From positions 1-64,000 of the forward strand of contig MEOG01000041.1 in the NCBI GenBank assembly GCA_001769125.1: a DNA stretch of 64,000 nt, in the 5' to 3' direction. A model generated the notes under the pieces. That model searched no databases and had not been told where the DNA came from. It saw only the letters and a list, made by a program, of their open reading frames with translations. This DNA comes from Bacteroidetes bacterium GWF2_35_48 (GTDB lineage: Bacteria > Bacteroidota > Bacteroidia > Bacteroidales > GWF2-35-48). The position numbers and the translations under genes are program-made. This document shows positions 11,022 through 31,235 of the stretch, in pieces. Position 1 is the first letter of the stretch, and each line of letters opens with the position of its first letter.

Positions 11022-11400
11022 ATTTGATTTGAAGATGTGCTGATTTGTTAACTTGAAGATGTGTCGATTTGAAGATTTGAAGATGTGTCGATTTGAAGAT
11101 TTTTACGAACATTGAGCGTAGTCGAAATGTGAAGATTTGAAGATGTGTCGATTTGAAGATGTGTCGATTTGATGATGTGAAGATGAGTGGATGAGTTTTA
11201 TGTTTAAAGTTGTTGAGTGTTGATTGCTGAATGTTGAATTTAGAATTGCAATCCTGTGAGGTTTTTTGCGCAGGTTTGTGCGAAAGATCCCTTAAGGCAG
11301 GCTCACAGGCTTGCAGAGTAAGCTATATTTATAAAATGTCGAATTACGAATTACGAATGTTGAATATTGAATGTTGGATATTGAATATTGGATATTAAAT
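11022..11400. repeat. Intergenic repeat block: GATTTGAAGATGTGTC tandem, CCTGTGAGG palindrome, heptamers
   Basis: Three patterns follow one another. At 11022-11190 are degenerate copies of GATTTGAAGATGTGTC interrupted by CATTGAGCGTAGTCGAAATG, a word common in Bacteroidetes genomes. At 11248-11316 is a CCTGTGAGG...CTCACAGG hairpin element. At 11338-11398 are heptamer-period GAATTAC and TGAATAT repeats. No gene is supported in this stretch. Confidence 0.8.
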
Positions 11401-17655: not shown

Positions 17656-18585
17656 TTACAGTGCAAGCAAAATAGTACCTGTATTGCCGTTTTTCTCCCA
17701 GTCTATGCGGTAGTGCGTTGCGCAGTTTGAACCGCTTACAATGTTTCCGGAACTGTCAAGTCCAAAAGTGAGTGTTGCAGATTTACCATCCGCTGGAATG
17801 CTGTGTTTTTTCACGCCTGAAAAAGGTTCCCAGTAACAAGCCTGTTTTAAAACAAGTGGAGTAGTAATCTGTGTATAAAACTGTTCTCCGTTTCTATTAG
17901 TACCCCAGGTAACAAGTTGTGTCATTCCGTTGGCGCTTCCTGTTCCTTCAATGCTCACTTCGAGTTGACCTGATGCTGCAACTCCAGTGCAGGTTTTTTT
18001 ACGGGAAACATTCCATTGTCTTGTTGAATTATCGTCAAATAAAATCGTTAATGAACCTGTTACAGTATGAACAACAGCTGCACTGCCTGATATAAGCTCT
18101 CTTATTATTCCCCCGGATTCATTTACGAACGTTTTTGTTCCATTCAGAGTTATAGATTTTCCTGTAAGAACTCTTGTTATTTTAAGATTAATGAATTCAA
18201 TGGTTATTGTTGCACCCTGATTGCGCCACAACTGATTAACAGGTTTTGCAACCTTTACAACTCCCACCCTATTTCTTTTTCCGCTACAATTTAAACCATT
18301 ATAAGTAATAGTCCAAACAACATTATTGCTGATTGTGTCGGGTGTGCTGACTGTTGCATTACAGGGAAGCCATTCTACCGATTTTGCAGTACCTCCTGAA
18401 AGCATATCATTCGCATCATTTAACGCATCGTCTGTGTTGCTCTGAATTTCGTTTTCATCTTTTGATAATTGAGATAAGGATGTTGGGTCTGGTGTTTCTT
18501 CTTTATTTTTTTTGCATCCTGTAAACAAAAAAGCTGCAACAAAAAGAACCATTACGGCTGTCTGAATTAAATTTTTCTTTTTCAT
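17656..18585 (-). CDS. ECF-regulated lipoprotein of unknown function
   Basis: A 309-residue protein with lipoprotein signal ending FLFTGC and an acidic, Asn/Asp-rich linker (SKDENEIQSNTDDALNDANDML). The mature part is beta-rich with repeated W-T-I-T-Y and T-I-E-F-I patterns and six to seven cysteines that could form disulfides (CNATV, GLNCSG, KKTCTG, QACYWE, NCATHY). Its promoter carries the same bipartite motif as the fecR promoter 5.3 kb away, so it is probably a target of the ECF sigma factor in this window. A strong terminator follows. Function unknown. Confidence 0.8.
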   Translation of the reverse strand: MKKKNLIQTAVMVLFVAAFLFTGCKKNKEETPDPTSLSQLSKDENEIQSNTDDALNDANDMLSGGTAKSVEWLPCNATVSTPDTISNNVVWTITYNGLNCSGKRNRVGVVKVAKPVNQLWRNQGATITIEFINLKITRVLTGKSITLNGTKTFVNESGGIIRELISGSAAVVHTVTGSLTILFDDNSTRQWNVSRKKTCTGVAASGQLEVSIEGTGSANGMTQLVTWGTNRNGEQFYTQITTPLVLKQACYWEPFSGVKKHSIPADGKSATLTFGLDSSGNIVSGSNCATHYRIDWEKNGNTGTILLAL

Positions 18586-18630: not shown

Positions 18631-18663
18631 TTATTATACACATAAATATTTATTTACCCTGAT
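18631..18663 (-). promoter_or_regulatory. Predicted ECF sigma promoter before the lipoprotein gene
   Basis: On the minus strand ATCAGGGTAAA is followed, 8 bases later, by TTATGTGTAT. The fecR promoter has the same two blocks at the same spacing; 25 of the first 28 positions agree. The site ends 46 bases before the ATG. Confidence 0.7.
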
Positions 18664-18764
18664 GCCTGTTTAATTTTTTCTTTAATTTATTCAAATTCGC
18701 ATTAAAACAATCATTCTCTTTTGCATTTCGTAAAAAATGCTGACTGCAAACCATGCAGTAAATA

Positions 18765-19179
18765 TTTCGGTGCTCTGCACCTTAGATTTGTTTTTATTAC
18801 ATTGTTGTTACAAATATCACGCAGCTCTGCCGCTGCATTTCAAATAAAGTAGCAGCAAAATTGCGATTACATTTGTAGCAGCAGGGCTGCGATAATATTT
18901 GTAGCAGCAGAGCTGCGATAATATTTGTAGCAGCAGAGCTGCAATAATATTTGTAGCAGCAGGGCTGCGATAATATTTGTAGCAGCAGAGCTGCGATAAT
19001 ATTTGTAGCAGCGTAGCTGCGATAATATCTGTAGCAGCAGAGCTGCGATAATATTTGTAGCAGCAGGGCTGCAATAATATTTGTAGCAGCAGAGCTGCGA
19101 TAATATTTGTAGCAGCGTAGCTGCGATAATATTTGTAGCAGCAGAGCTGCGTTGTTTACGAAGGTGCAGAGCACCGAAA
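18765..19179. repeat. 26-bp hairpin array bounded by perfect 19-bp inverted repeats
   Basis: Eleven contiguous 26-bp units run from 18875 to 19160, the last one partial. A degenerate unit precedes them at 18849 and an inverted partial unit lies at 18809-18836. Each unit contains GCAGC-nnn-GCTGC with nnn = AGA, AGG or GTA, then GATAATATTTGTA. The block is bounded by TTTCGGTGCTCTGCACCTT (18765-18783) and its exact reverse complement (19161-19179), themselves GGTGC-TCT-GCACC hairpins. There are no unique spacers, so it is not a CRISPR. Reading frames through it are only the repeat translated. Confidence 0.92.
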
Positions 19180-19270
19180 CAAAATACGGTTTATTAACGA
19201 ATAAAAAAATATGCGAAAGTACAGTTATTTTATTCTCTCAATAAGAAATAAAATTATGCAAATGTTTTTA

Positions 19271-20119
19271 TTAATTCACAACAATAATTGTTTGTATTAC
19301 ATCACAGGCACTGAAAAAACCTTTAGCACCACCCGTTAGATTTGTCGGGATATTTGCAGGGGATGAATCAAAAAGCCCTCCTCTCCATTTGGTTTCAATT
19401 AAAAGACAACGAATAAAATTTTCATGCTCTGCAGAGATGGAATATTTTTTTTCAGTAATTATTGTACCGGCAGGAAAAATTATGCGTTCTGTTTCTGGCG
19501 AGAAAATCTGGTTCACATCAATAGTTGTCAACGTATAATAATACATTAAAGTAAAACAGGGATTGCCTTGTAAACAGCTATCAGAGGAACTCCAGTCCAA
19601 TGTAATTTCATACATGAATGCTTTTTCATAATTATATGCACCTGCAATCCAATCAATTTTATAATTATTGGTTCCGCCGATTTTACTGTAACGAAGCGGC
19701 GAAAGGCTATTACATGGCTTCATCAAAGCAACAGCCGTGTACGTTTTTCCGCCAGAAATAATTTTCAATTTGTATTCATTTTCGGGAGAACCTGAAACAC
19801 TCGAAGCTGTCTGATATACTCCCGAACCAGAAGTTGTCTCTGTTAAAATAATTGAATCATTTATGCTTACAATGGCACCGCTTACGCCAACAGCAGGATC
19901 ATTGAGATTTTTTACCGGCTTTGAAATTTTAACCTGATGCGCTTTTTTTTCACTCGTTATCATTCCTTCAACTATGATAAAATCTTGTTCTTGAATATCA
20001 AGATTCCAATCAATTTTTTTCTCGCATGAGGTAACAAGAAGCGAAACGAATATATTTATAAAGCTGATAAATAATATTCCAGTTTTTTTATTAAAAAGAT
20101 ATTTTCTATTCATTCGCAT
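19271..20119 (-). CDS. DUF4249 lipoprotein, TonB-receptor partner
   Basis: The 282-residue protein has a signal ending VTSC and the DUF4249 start (DIQEQDFIIVEGMITSEKKAHQVKISKP), followed by a beta-sandwich-like part (AIVSINDSIILTETTSGSGVYQT, ENEYKLKIISGGKTYTA). DUF4249 proteins are encoded next to TonB-dependent receptors in Bacteroidetes and probably sit on the receptor's outer face, as SusD-like proteins do. The receptor gene ends 3 bases before this gene. Ligand unknown. Confidence 0.88.
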   Translation of the reverse strand: MRMNRKYLFNKKTGILFISFINIFVSLLVTSCEKKIDWNLDIQEQDFIIVEGMITSEKKAHQVKISKPVKNLNDPAVGVSGAIVSINDSIILTETTSGSGVYQTASSVSGSPENEYKLKIISGGKTYTAVALMKPCNSLSPLRYSKIGGTNNYKIDWIAGAYNYEKAFMYEITLDWSSSDSCLQGNPCFTLMYYYTLTTIDVNQIFSPETERIIFPAGTIITEKKYSISAEHENFIRCLLIETKWRGGLFDSSPANIPTNLTGGAKGFFSACDVIQTIIVVN

Positions 20120-20122
20120 TTT

Positions 20123-22825
20123 TCAGAATTTAAAATTATACGTAACAGATGGGATTACTCCCGCAACTGAAATCATGGTGGGAATAATTTCAGATTGTCC
20201 TGAAAGATCTGTGGGTACAACAAGCTTTCCATTATCATCCAGAATTTTTGTGAAATTTACAGATACAGGATTTTTATGTGCGTAAGCATTGTACAAAGTG
20301 AAAATCAAATTATGCTGAAATCTTTTTTCAGGTGGTCGGAAAGAATAAGTAACTGAAATATCCATGCGATGATACGCAGGCAGGCGATCGTTATTTTTAT
20401 CACCATAAACAGGAACGGTGTAGCCATTGAAATAGTAAAAACTTACCGGGGACGTAAATGCGCTTCCTGACATATAGAGCCAGTTTGCAGATAGCAACCA
20501 GTGTTTTTTTGCTTTATAAGAAATATTGATACATACATCATGAGGCCTGTCATAAGCTGCAACATACGAATTTCCGTTATTTATACCCAGAGTATTTTTT
20601 ATACTTCTCGAATATGTATATCCTATCCAACCTGTAAAATTACCATCCTGCTTGCGAATCATTAATTCTGTCCCGTAAGCATTTGATATTCCCTGTCGCA
20701 ATTCTCCCTCAATAGCCGGATTAAATAGAAGAGATGCATGATCTGCGTAGTCAATCTGATTTTGAATATGCTTGAAAAAAATTTCTCCGGAAAAATAAAA
20801 TAAACCTGAAAAATGCTTGAAATACCCTGCGGAAAACTGATCTGCATAAGAAGGCTTAATATTGGATCCGCTTGGTATCCATACTTCCATTGAAGTAAAA
20901 GGGCTGACCGAATTTGTTATCATGTGAAGAAACTGACTGTTTCGTGTGTAGCTTGCTTTCAGTGCAGTTCTTTTATTGATGCTGTATTTTACATTTATTC
21001 TTGGCTCTGCAGTTAAAAAAGATTTATATACTTCACCCTCATTTACGCTTGTTGAATCTATTACTATATGCTGGTCATTAAATGTAAAATATTTTGTTTC
21101 GCCAAGATCCTGCCACAAAGGAACTCTTATGCCATAACGAAGCGACCATTTCTCTGAAATTACCTGTTCATTGCTTCCATACAATGCGAATTCCCGGCTC
21201 TGATATTTAGCAACAGCAGGCAATTTCCTCTTCACATATTCATCAGATATTTCTACATTTCCCGGATTAGAAGAATGTATGTTGCAATGTATTCCTGTCT
21301 TTATTGTGTTTTTTGTATTGGCATACCAGGTAAAATCTGTTTTAAAACTGAAATTTGAGATTTCTGAATTCCAGAATTCATTTTTTTCTTTCGATATATA
21401 AAGATAGTAATTGTATCTGCTGATATAGGCAGTCGTATTTGAAAAAAGTTTCTGACTGAAAATATGGTTCCAGCGGAGTGTGCTCAGAAAATTATCCCAG
21501 CTGATTCCAAACGTATTTGTTCCTGCACTGTAAATACGGCTGAATTCATCAGCTCCTCTGTATAATGTTAAAAATATTCTGTTGTTATTATTTATTTTAA
21601 AATTAAGTTTTGCATTCAGGTCGTAAAAATTAATTTTTAATGTTTTTTTTGTTTGTCTTTGAATCCAGTTCATATTTGCACGCCGGGCAGAAACAATGTA
21701 TGAAATCCTATCTTTCCATACAGGACCTTCAAAAGAAATAGTTGAAGTGAAAGGTCCAATGCTTCCGCTCATTCCAAATTGTTTCATATTGCCATCTTTT
21801 GTACGTATATCAATCATTGACGACAAACGACCACCGTAACTTGCAGGAAAATCACCCTTATATGCTTCAATATCTTTAATTGCATCGGGAGCAATTGCAG
21901 AGAAAAAGCCAAATAAATGTGCAGGGTTATAAATAGGAGCATCGTCAATAAGAATCATATTTTGATCGCTGTTTCCACCTCTGACATAAAATAAAGTGGA
22001 GCCATCACCATAAGCTTTTATTCCGGAAACCGATTGTAAGGATTTTATAATATCCGTTTCACCAACAAAACCGGTCATCCCGGACAATGTTTTCGGAGTA
22101 AGTTTCATTTCTCCCGACTGATTCATTTCTACTTCCTTTTCCGGATCATCGGCTGAAATCTGTACTTCGCTTATTTGTGCTGTAGATGACTCCATCTCAA
22201 AGGAAATAGTTTGATTTCCGGTTAAATTCAATTCCTGAAAAACGGGTTTAAAGCCAATGTAAGAACAACACAAGATATATTTACCTTCAGGAAGTGTCAA
22301 TGAAAAATAACCGTAAGCATTTGTTGCAGCACCAAGGATGGTTCCTTTTGCAAAAATATTTGCACCAATTAATATTTCACCTGTAGATTTATCGCGCAGA
22401 TATCCATTAATAGTATATTTTGGTTTTATTGCTTCAGATTCTTTTTCTTTTTTATCATCAATATTTTTCTTTTCGTCAGACCCAACGCGGCGTTTTTTTA
22501 GTATTACCTGATTTTCTACAATTAAATATTCCACATCGTTTTGTAAAAATACAGCATCAAAAATTTCCTGAAGCGTTTTATTTTTAAGATGAATCGTTAT
22601 TAATTTTGAAACAGGTAACTGATCGGGGCTGTATGAAAAACGAATCGCACTTAAATTTTCGATTTTGTGTATTACATCGGAAAGCGGTTTGTTTTTTACT
22701 TTAAGCGTTATTTTTTGTGATAAGTCCTGAGCATGCGTGTTTATACAAGAAAAGAGAAAAATAAAGATTAATATTTTTTGAAGAAAAAATTTTGATACGA
22801 ATAATGTAAGAGCTTGCTTCATCAT
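20123..22825 (-). CDS. TonB-dependent outer-membrane receptor with STN signalling domain
   Basis: A 900-residue receptor. A signal peptide ends THAQ. It is followed by an STN/secretin-type domain (residues about 33-110, KITLKVKNKPLSDVIHKIEN), which contacts the anti-sigma factor. Then come a carboxypeptidase-regulatory-like domain (about 135-215, INGYLRDKSTGEILIGANIF), a plug (about 225-350, FYVRGGNSDQNMILIDDAPI) and a C-terminal 22-strand-type barrel ending in phenylalanine. The STN domain together with FecR and the ECF sigma suggests transcription responds to its ligand. The gene starts 23 bases after fecR. Confidence 0.93.
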   Translation of the reverse strand: MMKQALTLFVSKFFLQKILIFIFLFSCINTHAQDLSQKITLKVKNKPLSDVIHKIENLSAIRFSYSPDQLPVSKLITIHLKNKTLQEIFDAVFLQNDVEYLIVENQVILKKRRVGSDEKKNIDDKKEKESEAIKPKYTINGYLRDKSTGEILIGANIFAKGTILGAATNAYGYFSLTLPEGKYILCCSYIGFKPVFQELNLTGNQTISFEMESSTAQISEVQISADDPEKEVEMNQSGEMKLTPKTLSGMTGFVGETDIIKSLQSVSGIKAYGDGSTLFYVRGGNSDQNMILIDDAPIYNPAHLFGFFSAIAPDAIKDIEAYKGDFPASYGGRLSSMIDIRTKDGNMKQFGMSGSIGPFTSTISFEGPVWKDRISYIVSARRANMNWIQRQTKKTLKINFYDLNAKLNFKINNNNRIFLTLYRGADEFSRIYSAGTNTFGISWDNFLSTLRWNHIFSQKLFSNTTAYISRYNYYLYISKEKNEFWNSEISNFSFKTDFTWYANTKNTIKTGIHCNIHSSNPGNVEISDEYVKRKLPAVAKYQSREFALYGSNEQVISEKWSLRYGIRVPLWQDLGETKYFTFNDQHIVIDSTSVNEGEVYKSFLTAEPRINVKYSINKRTALKASYTRNSQFLHMITNSVSPFTSMEVWIPSGSNIKPSYADQFSAGYFKHFSGLFYFSGEIFFKHIQNQIDYADHASLLFNPAIEGELRQGISNAYGTELMIRKQDGNFTGWIGYTYSRSIKNTLGINNGNSYVAAYDRPHDVCINISYKAKKHWLLSANWLYMSGSAFTSPVSFYYFNGYTVPVYGDKNNDRLPAYHRMDISVTYSFRPPEKRFQHNLIFTLYNAYAHKNPVSVNFTKILDDNGKLVVPTDLSGQSEIIPTMISVAGVIPSVTYNFKF

Positions 22826-22848
22826 GGCAAAATTAAAATTCGTATCAT

Positions 22849-23862
22849 TTATTTACAAGCTTGCCCTGTAATTTGAATCTGCGCTCCTTTTTGTATAACC
22901 TCCACTCCAAGTGTTGCCTCAAGAATATTCAGAACAGCGCCGAGTTCCTGATCTTCAAAAGTGGCTGTCAGTTTGCATCCGGCAATTTGAGGATTTAATA
23001 TCCTAATATTTGTGTTATAGGTTTTATTTAATTCAGAGACAATATCATTTAATTTCTGATCTGTAAATACAAGCTTACGTGTTTTCCATGCAATGGAATT
23101 TTCATTTACAGAAATGGATTCGCTGATTTTATTTAAAACAGGCGAAAACACTGCTTGTTCACCCGGTTCTACTATTATTTTTTGATCAGGTGTATTTTTA
23201 TTGTAAACGGCGACTTTTCCTGTTTTTACAATCACTTCTACATTCCCGTCTTTTCCTTTTGTATTAACATAAAAAGTTGTACCCAGCACTTCTGCATAAA
23301 CAGGACCTGCGTCAATAATAAAAGGTTTTTTCTTATCAGGTTTAACATTAAAAAATGCTTCTCCTTCAAGTTTGATCATTCTTTTTTCTGCATCAAAATT
23401 TTCAGGGAATTCAATAAGCGTATTCGTATTCATAGAAACGACAGAACCATCCGGAAGTTTTGTTTCGGTGTTTTGTGTCTGCGCTATTAGTTTTCTGGTA
23501 TCAGGAGTTTGTGTTTTTGTATATATGATGTAAGAAAGGACTGCCAGTAAAACAATAGCAGCAGCTATTTTCACAAAAGCAAAAAACCCTTTTTTATTTT
23601 TTTCAGAATTAATTTCAATTCGATGAGAAGATGTTTTTGTTCCGATTTTATTTTTCAATTTATTCCATTCAAGCCCGGAATCAACAGTCGAAATGATTTT
23701 AGATTTTTCCGTAAGTTCCCATGTTTTTCTGAAATCAATAAAAGCTTTCTTGTATTCATCCGATTCTTTAATTTTTGAAGATATCAACAGCATATCTTCC
23801 GGTGAGGAATTCCCGGAAAAATATTTTATTAATAAATCATAATATGTTGAATCGGCCATCAT
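22849..23862 (-). CDS. FecR-family anti-sigma factor
   Basis: A 337-residue single-pass inner-membrane protein. The cytosolic N-terminal part (YYDLLIKYFSGNSSPEDMLLI) binds sigma. A membrane helix lies near residues 92-113 (FVKIAAAIVLLAVLSYIIYT). The periplasmic FecR domain contains TKLPDGSVVSMNTNTLIEFP and GEAFFNVKPDKKKPFIIDAG, and the C-terminal DUF4974/STN-like part ends in LNILEATLGVEVI. It heads the operon with the TonB receptor and DUF4249 gene and has its own ECF-type promoter. Its sigma partner is 2.5 kb upstream, separated by the restriction-modification genes. Confidence 0.93.
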   Translation of the reverse strand: MMADSTYYDLLIKYFSGNSSPEDMLLISSKIKESDEYKKAFIDFRKTWELTEKSKIISTVDSGLEWNKLKNKIGTKTSSHRIEINSEKNKKGFFAFVKIAAAIVLLAVLSYIIYTKTQTPDTRKLIAQTQNTETKLPDGSVVSMNTNTLIEFPENFDAEKRMIKLEGEAFFNVKPDKKKPFIIDAGPVYAEVLGTTFYVNTKGKDGNVEVIVKTGKVAVYNKNTPDQKIIVEPGEQAVFSPVLNKISESISVNENSIAWKTRKLVFTDQKLNDIVSELNKTYNTNIRILNPQIAGCKLTATFEDQELGAVLNILEATLGVEVIQKGAQIQITGQACK

Positions 23863-23910
23863 TTTTTTCTAATTATTATGTGCTCATGAGTTTCAAATTA
23901 CTCAGTTTAT

Positions 23911-23943
23911 CATTAATACACATTAATATGGTTTTACCCTGAT
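23911..23943 (-). promoter_or_regulatory. Predicted ECF sigma promoter before fecR
   Basis: Minus-strand ATCAGGGTAAA, then 8 bases, then TAATGTGTAT, matching the site before the lipoprotein at 17.7-18.6 kb in spacing and sequence. It lies 49 bases before the fecR ATG and downstream of the restriction-modification genes, so fecR can be expressed without readthrough from the sigma gene. Confidence 0.7.
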
Positions 23944-24001: not shown

Positions 24002-24847
24002 TTAATTTATCTGGAAAATTATTAGTTTAGCCTTAATTAAATTTGCTGGATTATTTGGGTCTTTAACCTGCACATCAGTTATTGTCAAATTATTTAATCT
24101 TAAATTTTCAATTTTATCTCTGCTTTCAGTTGCAAAAGTTTGATATTTATCTGTCGGAATAATTGCAACTAATTCAAATGTATTTAATGTTGGAGTATGT
24201 AAATAATTGAATACTCTTCTCGGATTCTGAATTTGCCACATTCCTCTGATTCGTAAGTTTGTTATTCCCAAGGGATCAACTCTATTAACTCGTCCTAATT
24301 CATTTGTTTCAGCCAATTCAACATTTGGAATTTCATTTATTCCGTCAGTAATTTTCTGCTTAATAATTTGATAAGTTTCATGTTTAGCCGCATAAATATT
24401 TCCATAAACCATCCAGAGAGAATTTACACTTTCATCAGATGTATGTCCTACGCAATAAATCAAATCTTTTTCAGTCCAATTTTCACAAGTTCTGCACTCC
24501 TGAGTTATCATTGGACTATCAGATTTCATATTTGATTTCGGATATGAACTGTTCAATGCTAAATCACTATTAACACTTTGAGTTTTCTTGACCTCTATAG
24601 CATCACCTTCTCTAATCATAATATCCGGGGGATGATTTTGATTACCCAACCAAGAGAAAACTTCATTATGTTTTCTTATTCGGTCAACATCATTAACTAT
24701 TTGAATTGTATTAGCAAATGCATCTTTAACAAAATTTTCTAATGCTTCACCTACATTATTGGCACGATTTCTACCTGAATAATGACTTTTTATTTCAAGT
24801 ATTGGATTATTGATTATGTTTATAATTGCTTCTAAAATATTTGTCAT
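24002..24847 (-). CDS. Type II restriction endonuclease, NgoPII family (GGCC expected)
   Basis: The 281-residue protein matches NgoPII-type endonucleases throughout: [58 protein letters not shown], and [20 protein letters not shown]. The catalytic PD-ExK set is D75, E85 and K87 (PPDIM...AIEVKK). NgoPII cuts GGCC, so this enzyme probably does too; the specificity is inferred from the family. Its start overlaps the methyltransferase stop by 4 bases (ATGA), which couples nuclease translation to prior methylase synthesis. Confidence 0.88.
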
Positions 24848-25884
24848 ACAGCTACAGCTTGCTTTTGTGTTACATCTATTTGCTTTTGAATTTCTGTTTT
24901 TTTAAGTTGTTGTTTTATACTTTCTGCTAAAAATTTAGCAAGATTTACGGGAACAGCATTTCCGATCATTTTGTAACCTACAGGTACATTGATATAATGA
25001 AAAATAAAATTATCAGGGAATGTTTGAATTCTAGCACATTCTCTAACGCTTAATCTTCTATAGAGATGCTCTTGTTTTGGTTCGAAAATTCGGATATTTT
25101 GTTCAATAAATTTCATTTTAGGTGCTTGTGGATGAATTGGCGCATGTCTTCCTCCTGCTTGAATCGTAAATGATTGTTCATCCCAACTTCTTACACGATT
25201 TCTGGACATAAATATTGACGAAAAATCTCCTATCATATACTCATGATTAGGAATAATACAATTTTTACCATTAGTTTTATTATATTTAAGAGCGGGTATT
25301 GAATTATCTTTTAAATCAAATATAGCATTTTGTAATGTTAGTTTTGGAAAATTTGGTTTTGGAAATTGAAATTTAAAATTCAAATCTTTTCTGATACCTA
25401 TAAAAAAAACTCGTTTCCTATCTTGAGGGACATTATAATCACAAGCATTCAACATTTCAAAAGACAATTCATAACCAATACCTGCATTTCTAAATAATTC
25501 TTTTATGTTATTTAATGCACTTGAATGTCTATCTATCAGCATACCACTTACATTCTCTGCTAAAAAAAACTTTGGTTGTTTTGCTTCGAGAATTCTAATA
25601 AAATCAAAAAACAATTGACCTCTTTTATCTTCAATTCCTCTTAATGCACCAGCTTCACTCCAACTTTGACAAGGTGGCCCTCCAATTATTCCATCACACT
25701 CTGGAACTTCATTTGAAGGAATATTTACAATACTTCTTTTATCTAATATTGTAAATGGATGATTTTTCTGATATGTTTCCCATATTTCATTATCATATTC
25801 GTTTGCCCAAATGACATCGAACCCTGCCTTTTGAAATCCAAGATCAAGACCACCTGCTCCAGCAAAAAAAGATACTATTTTCAT
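24844..25884 (-). CDS. DNA (cytosine-5)-methyltransferase of the NgoPII-type system
   Basis: It protects host DNA by methylating cytosine in the nuclease's site. The 346-residue enzyme has the C5-methylase motifs in order: [13 protein letters not shown] (I), [12 protein letters not shown] with catalytic C72 (IV), ENVSGM (VI), [13 protein letters not shown] (VIII), [14 protein letters not shown] (IX) and [12 protein letters not shown] (X). The target-recognition region between VIII and IX is short. It overlaps the controller gene by 4 bases upstream and the nuclease by 4 bases downstream, forming a C-M-R operon. Confidence 0.95.
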
Positions 25885-26207
25885 ATTATTATTGATTTTT
25901 TTGATTTTAAATATTTTATTTTTTGTTCTGCGAGAATTAAAGTTTCCTTATTACAATTATTTGCATACAGTTTTTTAGCAATAATATCACTAAAAAATTC
26001 AGTTCTTAATTTTGTAATATTTAATTTGAAAATTTTAGCTAAAAGGCTTAGCCTTTTTTCATCAAATTCTCTTTTATTATTTTCAATTTTGCTCAAATTA
26101 GCAGAATCCAAGTCAAGTTTTGCAGCCAATTGAGTTAATGTAAACCCATTATCAAGTCTAAGTTTTTTAATATATTCTCCGAATGTTTCTTTCATTTGAC
26201 TTGTCAT
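25881..26207 (-). CDS. XRE-type controller protein of the restriction-modification system
   Basis: A 108-residue DNA-binding protein with a Cro/CI helix-turn-helix at about residues 12-65 ([33 protein letters not shown]) and a helical C-terminal tail. It is the first gene of a three-gene operon with the methylase and nuclease, the position of C proteins that delay nuclease expression. The promoter places the transcript start at or within a few bases of the ATG, so the message is probably leaderless. A palindrome covers the start codon and -7 box. Confidence 0.88.
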
Positions 26208-26419: not shown

Positions 26420-26983
26420 TTACCTTGTGCTTAACATCCAAACAAGAAAAGCTGTAATGTAATCTGCCAGTCTTATTCTTAGATGCTGCAACGCTTTTGA
26501 CATTTGTGTTTCAACTGTTTTTACGGAGATATTGAGTTTATCTGCAATTTCTCTGTATTTCAGGTTTTCAAAACGACTTAACATAAAAACTTCTCTGCAT
26601 TTTTCAGGTAATTCATTGATTGCTTCCTGGATTTTTTGTTCCAGTTCTTCACATGAAAACGGATCCAGTTCTTCAAACTCTGATACGTCCTCCAGATTTT
26701 CGAGAGTTAATAAATCACGATTAAATTTTTTATTATCGCGGAGAAAATTTAGACAACGATTATGTACAGTTGTTGACAAATAAGATTTAACCGATTTTGA
26801 CAAATCAATATTGTCTTTTTTATCCCATAAATTGATAAAAGAATCATGTACTATTTCCTTTGCCGTTTCAAAATCTTTAACATAGCGCTGTGCAAAAAAA
26901 CAGAGCCCTTGAAAATGAGTTTTGAAAAGTAGCTCAAAAGCAGTTTCATCAAAAATAATATCCGGACTTTTAACTATTTCCAT
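26420..26983 (-). CDS. ECF RNA polymerase sigma factor (Bacteroidetes expansion group)
   Basis: The 187-residue sigma factor has region 2 (residues about 15-85: FELLFKTHFQGLCFFAQRYVKDFETAKEIVHDSFINLW) and region 4 (about 125-172: LPEKCREVFMLSRFENLKYREIADKLNISVKTVE). There is no region 3. A C-terminal hydrophobic tail (YITAFLVWMLS) is usual for this group. It directs transcription of FecR/TonB receptor genes when the receptor signals. Its own gene has a housekeeping-type -7 box. In this genome its FecR partner is separated from it by an R-M cassette. Confidence 0.93.
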   Translation of the reverse strand: MEIVKSPDIIFDETAFELLFKTHFQGLCFFAQRYVKDFETAKEIVHDSFINLWDKKDNIDLSKSVKSYLSTTVHNRCLNFLRDNKKFNRDLLTLENLEDVSEFEELDPFSCEELEQKIQEAINELPEKCREVFMLSRFENLKYREIADKLNISVKTVETQMSKALQHLRIRLADYITAFLVWMLSTR

Positions 26984-27000
26984 TGATTAGAATAATATCA

Positions 27001-27008
27001 CAAAAATA
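27001..27008 (-). promoter_or_regulatory. -7 box (TATTTTTG) of the ECF sigma gene
   Basis: The minus-strand TATTTTTG fits TAnnTTTG and lies 17 bases before the sigma ATG, which suggests that the housekeeping sigma transcribes the gene. Confidence 0.5.
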
Positions 27009-28794: not shown

Positions 28795-29022
28795 ACAATT
28801 GGAATTCGGTAGAAATACAATAGGAATACAATTGTACATCTATCGAAGAAACAATTGTACACCTATCGAACATCTATCGAAGAAACAATTGTACACCTAT
28901 CGAACATCTATCGAAGAAACAATTGTACACCTATCGAACATCAACCGTAGCACAATTGAACATCTATTGAACATCTATCGAACATCTATCGTAGCACTAT
29001 TGAAGTACTATCGAATTTCATT
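28795..29022. repeat. 34-bp tandem repeat with ACAATTGTAC palindromes
   Basis: The unit combines ATCGAAGAAACAATTGTAC and ACCTATCGAACATCT, seen perfectly at 28861-28894 and 28895-28928 and decaying on both sides into CTATCGAACAT words. ACAATTGT is itself palindromic. The tract separates two convergent genes. There are no unique spacers, so it is not a CRISPR. Confidence 0.85.
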
Positions 29023-31125: not shown

Positions 31126-31235
31126 ACCGAAGTCTACAGTCTACAGTCTACAGTCCTCAGTCTGTTTGACTGCCGACTGCCGACTCTTTCGACTGCCGAC
31201 TGCCGACTGCCGACTCTTTTGACTGCCGACTTTCT
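31126..31235. repeat. AGTCTAC/GACTGCC heptamer compound repeat
   Basis: Four AGTCTAC-type heptamers are followed by runs of GACTGCC heptamers broken by GACTCTTT. It is the reverse-complement counterpart of the tract at 1262-1362. The remaining 31236-31568 up to the tRNA holds no supported gene. Confidence 0.85.

Follow-up and report, generated by a model that had tools for sequence, protein, structure and literature searches.

The stretch of DNA analysed (the window) comprises 64,000 nucleotides from Bacteroidetes bacterium GWF2_35_48. Its minus strand carries the genes for a FecI-type ECF sigma factor, a FecR protein, a TonB-dependent receptor and a lipoprotein, referred to as lipoprotein 1, together with two copies of a bipartite upstream element:

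17656..18585, minus strand, lipoprotein 1, 309 aa; putative regulon member by sequence comparison, no Pfam/NCBIfam family
18634..18663, minus strand, putative sigma-dependent promoter of lipoprotein 1, ATCAGGGTAAA-N9-ATGTGTATAA; exact match, kept before lipoprotein orthologues
19271..20119, minus strand, DUF4249 protein (Pfam PF14054), last gene of the putative fecR operon, 3 bp past the receptor gene
20123..22825, minus strand, TonB-dependent receptor with STN signalling domain (Pfam STN, CarbopepD_reg_2, Plug)
22849..23862, minus strand, FecR anti-sigma factor / sigma regulator (Pfam FecR, FecR_C)
23914..23943, minus strand, putative sigma-dependent promoter of the fecR-receptor-DUF4249 operon, ATCAGGGTAAA-N9-ATGTGTATTA; exact match, kept before fecR orthologues
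24002..26207, minus strand, NgoPII-type restriction endonuclease, C5 cytosine methylase and HTH protein (Pfam)
26420..26983, minus strand, FecI-type ECF sigma factor, 187 aa (Pfam Sigma70_r2, r4_2; TIGR02985; orthology)
27001..27008, minus strand, TATTTTTG, -7 box of housekeeping type (TAnnTTTG) upstream of the sigma gene, without an evident -33 box

The sigma factor matched TIGR02985 with 175.6 bits (cut-off 126.4) and scored under the cut-off of NF041727, the E. coli FecI equivalog. FecR matched PF04773 and PF16344 and the receptor PF07660 and PF07715, all of them above cut-off, whilst comparison of the receptor and the DUF4249 protein with the PDB gave no sequence match. Only two FecR genes were found in the whole genome. 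Elsewhere in the order, 19 genomes had their best match to the sigma factor immediately 5' of the fecR orthologue, at a distance of 64-666 bp as compared to 2560 bp here. Sigma, fecR and receptor genes are adjacent in relatives; in view of this difference in distance, the restriction-modification genes standing between sigma gene and fecR in the window look inserted, and the insertion apparently left the fecR promoter intact. The sigma/FecR/TonB-receptor set that the original prediction had placed in this neighbourhood was indeed found, with sigma gene and fecR parted by the NgoPII-type restriction-modification system. The space separating the DUF4249 gene from the lipoprotein promoter also contains a tandem array (18849-19151) of about 11.7 copies, 90% alike, of a 26-bp unit (GTAGCAGCAGAGCTGCGATAATATTT), and further short-period tandem repeat arrays appeared in the window at 28836-28991, 11026-11192, and 31168-31231.

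Two sequence blocks repeated at identical spacing before fecR and before lipoprotein 1 had been proposed, and both sites proved to be exact. The pattern ATCAGGGTAAA-N9-ATGTGTAT occurred in two copies on the minus strand (18636-18663 and 23916-23943), 5.3 kb apart, with both blocks identical and with different spacer sequences, upstream of these two genes; the 5.98 Mb genome has no further copy. The spacing is 9 bases instead of the 8 proposed, a search with 8-base spacing giving zero matches. Bipartite sites before both start codons were thus borne out, but not their proposed distance of 46-49 bases: the end of ATGTGTAT lies 50 bases from the start codon of the lipoprotein gene and 53 bases from that of fecR. 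Allowing a gap of 8 to 10 bases (GGGTAAA-N8-10-ATGTGTAT), the two window sites were still the only matches genome-wide, and the reversed control gave 0. In shuffles of the window, 0.01 matches were expected with up to three mismatches, and two matches were reached in 0 of 100 shuffles. Looser searches of the genome gave no excess over the reversed control, neither with up to two mismatches (14 vs. 21 matches) nor with a second looser pattern (22 vs. 44). Among 12 inexact genome matches only the one on contig C105 was promoter-like in its placement, and the majority of the others fell within reading frames. The exact motif is rare, since matches with two mismatches do not exceed the control, and it is not scattered through coding DNA, a distribution against which the original prediction had been set; both exact matches lie upstream of genes.

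Upstream of the 30 best fecR loci in the order the element took the form AGGGTAAA-N10-TGTGTATTA, its spacing constant and its distance from the matched start 44-78 bp; it was degenerate at three of these loci (G046, G008, and G055, the last being of the paralogue type). The consensus derived from the fecR loci was ATAAGGGTAAA-n9-ATGTGTATTAT. In 198 relatives the exact pattern was matched 30 times, as compared to twice for the reversed control, and nearly all of the 30 matches precede reading frames, which correspond to fecR, both lipoprotein families (see below), other secreted proteins, and two unrelated ECF sigma factors. The pattern lies 7-8 bp before the genes of these unrelated sigma factors (L065 on contig C78 of G040 and L088 on contig C184 of G152), which suggests a sigma cascade or shared specificity.

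For lipoprotein 1, a matrix was trained on fecR sites alone and then applied to the upstream regions of other genes, the threshold (11.7) being the 99th percentile of reversed and reverse-complemented controls. All 18 close orthologues of lipoprotein 1 had the element, with matrix scores of 15.5-37.7. A second collection was composed of named, mostly Bacteroidales MAGs, in which 58 of 71 loci were absent from the first set. The element was present before 65 of the 71 orthologues (vs. 1/71 when reversed), with 60 above threshold, and missing before six; it was found at 52 of the 58 new loci. In five genomes (G129, G152, G040, G119, and G077) lipoprotein 1 and fecR are on different contigs and, because of this, conservation of the element cannot come from linkage alone. 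Its presence before 18/18 close orthologues and 65/71 in the second collection, distant contigs included, argues for the predicted membership of lipoprotein 1 in the regulon. Since this putative switch recurs upstream of the corresponding genes in dozens of relatives, a surface lipoprotein hitherto without a label can very probably be placed under the control of the sensor.

The match on contig C105 (G000:C105:66455-66479) differs by one mismatch and lies 41 bp before the gene of a 364-aa lipoprotein unrelated to lipoprotein 1, referred to as lipoprotein 2; its relatives in G048, G147, and G174 are also preceded by exact motifs. Combining strict and looser matching, the element was found before 19 of 28 lipoprotein 2 orthologues, all 19 in genomes with a sigma factor of the same clade, several of these motifs being looser variants classed by eye. 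Six to seven of the nine orthologues without motif belong to genomes lacking the clade sigma. In G155 and G045 a basal relative of the sigma factor is present and the motif is absent; in G001, from the same genus as the window, the orthologue has no motif, the sigma factor is missing from the assembly and the fecR promoter is kept. The association between lipoprotein 2 motif and clade sigma (Fisher P = 3e-5, or 2e-4 with G155, G045, and G001 counted against it) is indicative only, because some variants were assigned on visual inspection and genomes that are related do not count as independent. Sequence comparison thus supports lipoprotein 2 as a third unit of the putative regulon, outside the window.

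The clade sigma or its promoter was present in 38 genomes, of which 18 had lipoprotein 1 and 20 had lipoprotein 2, and the two families occurred together only in the genus of the window (Fisher P = 9e-7; loci L035-L052 and L151-L179). In a profile comparison they had the signal peptide alone in common. Neither lipoprotein belonged to a Pfam or NCBIfam family, and Foldseek searches with both gave nothing significant (best E 0.28 and 0.77). The predicted structure of lipoprotein 1 is beta-rich (pLDDT 84). VIA-align matched lipoprotein 1 with outer-membrane barrels (Z 10.1, rmsd 5.3, 190 aligned) and lipoprotein 2 with OspA (Z 6.7, rmsd 4.7, 157 aligned), matches of the models that we take to reflect no more than a generic arrangement, barrel-like or of sheets. 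Tentatively, the receptor/FecR/DUF4249 core might be fixed and the accessory lipoprotein swapped between two unrelated families under the same promoter, in which case members of either family would serve the receptor interchangeably as ligand-capturing partners; the split between lipoproteins follows sigma subclades and may therefore represent a single swap.

The relationship between promoter and sigma factor was analyzed by means of a tree of 66 sigma proteins, each labelled by the promoter of its neighbouring fecR. All 35 promoters with GTGTA fell in one sigma clade (2 changes vs. 22 in shuffles), and clades of paralogues either combined a -35 block resembling this one with a -10 of TTGTCA or were devoid of the element; this agreement is partly due to shared descent, because sigma gene and fecR promoter adjoin in relatives. 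No such element was present upstream of the second sigma/FecR pair of the genome. Residues best separating the GTGTA from the TGTC clade were 83 (D vs. H), 90, and 87; residues 76 and 71 scored highly as well. The segment 71-90, which we take to be region 2.3-2.4, the part reading the -10, would contain candidate specificity residues, this being a correlation within the phylogeny and not proof. In paralogous sigma/FecR pairs from the order (L187, L195, L198, L199, L208, L209, and others) the -35 was GGGGTAAA or AGGGTAAA and the -10 was TTGTCA or TTGTCT, and promoters with these -10 sequences would constitute a putative second class. The upstream region of the sigma gene itself has no ECF element; it displays, 17 bases before the start, a TAnnTTTG box, the housekeeping -7 consensus quoted in PMC7366714, and such a box was found upstream of neither fecR nor lipoprotein 1. 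The conservation before fecR and lipoprotein 1, and a -10 type that follows the sigma clade, point to the element as the recognition sequence of this sigma factor, as originally proposed.

We consider it very probable from these comparisons that the FecI-type ECF sigma factor 26420-26983 uses both window sites as promoters, within FecI/FecR/TonB-receptor signalling. It is improbable that a real ECF promoter is read here by another ECF sigma factor, alone or alongside this one. The genome offers about 17 sigma region-4 matches, and cross-recognition by other sigma factors could occur since in relatives the exact pattern is also found before the genes of two unrelated ECF sigmas, but promoter type tracks the clade of the fecR-adjacent sigma, paralogue clades differ at the -10, the lipoprotein 2 motif is mostly gone where the clade sigma is gone, and the second sigma/FecR pair lacks such a site. 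Still less credible is a site for an ordinary DNA-binding activator or repressor instead of a sigma promoter: although a conserved bipartite site with fixed spacing would suit a dimeric regulator too, the halves repeat each other in neither inverted nor direct orientation, a promoter is suggested by the distance between them, which resembles that of -35 and -10, and by a position 44-108 bp before most start codons, the -10 half varies with sigma clade, and there is no housekeeping box beside the element in the window. A coincidence, or an upstream region duplicated locally in recent times, would fit just two exact genome copies 5.3 kb apart but can practically be dismissed, given that 0.01 matches were expected in the window, that the spacers of the copies differ and that orthologues in many genomes have retained the element upstream despite diverged surroundings.

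Our best reading is a FecI/FecR/TonB-receptor signalling unit of the ordinary kind with a newly described putative promoter, its regulon probably including at least three units (the fecR-receptor-DUF4249 operon, lipoprotein 1, and lipoprotein 2). The promoter element, its conservation, its link with the sigma clade and the regulon members are supported by sequence comparison. Region 4 of the sigma factor would bind the -35 (AGGGTAAA) and region 2 the -10 (TGTGTATTA). Housekeeping polymerase would probably transcribe the sigma gene via the TAnnTTTG box, independently of the sigma factor itself. For signal flow, FecR action and feedback we infer the sequence of events from FecI/FecR/FecA: FecR would keep the sigma factor at the inner membrane until a ligand on the outer-membrane receptor causes the STN domain to signal FecR, and the sigma factor would then become active. 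Active sigma would transcribe the fecR-receptor-DUF4249 operon, giving extra receptor together with extra FecR that would act as a brake; lipoprotein 1, and lipoprotein 2 on C105, would be transcribed by it from promoters of their own. As fecR is inside the activated operon, feedback would be expected by the same analogy.

Promoters of ECF sigma factors are hardly known in Bacteroidetes. According to PMC7366714, none was known in B. thetaiotaomicron at its date, and for the ECF systems of Bacteroides polysaccharide utilisation their prediction has been called a challenge needing transcript starts (PMC3878776). By comparison alone, the analysis yields for one FecI-type group a full putative consensus of -35 and -10, the latter contrasting with the -10 of the paralogues (TTGTCA), and it points to sigma-factor residues that may determine specificity and to putative regulon members at unlinked loci; the same approach should suit many other sigma/FecR pairs of the phylum. 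A literature search for this motif found nothing relevant, the published ECF classification and the EcfO consensus being outside the comparison.

The system resembles FecI/FecR/FecA of E. coli (PMC9249621) in combining an ECF sigma factor, FecR, and a TonB-dependent receptor with an N-terminal signalling domain. In the Fec system the housekeeping factor transcribes fecIR and FecI transcribes fecA (PMC9249621); judging by sequence, the sigma gene here would likewise be under the housekeeping factor and the receptor gene under the ECF sigma. In contrast with E. coli, fecR appears inside the sigma-dependent operon, whereas in Fec it goes with fecI; unlinked lipoproteins seem to be part of the regulon, whereas FecI acts on one promoter only; and the promoter sequence is of Bacteroidetes type. 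The chain of ECF sigma, anti-sigma and TonB-type outer-membrane receptor is shared with Bacteroides polysaccharide utilisation loci (PMC3878776) but, unlike in these, no SusD or glycan enzymes were seen adjoining; for the Bacteroides systems, promoters had been reported as unpredicted. As with the SM6 promoters of Flavobacterium psychrophilum (PMC9723704), a Bacteroidetes promoter class is assigned to an ECF sigma from its -10 region; in SM6 there is a CGT box and the genes driven are those of type IX secretion, whereas here the -10 is TGTGTATTA and the putative targets are fecR, the receptor and lipoproteins.
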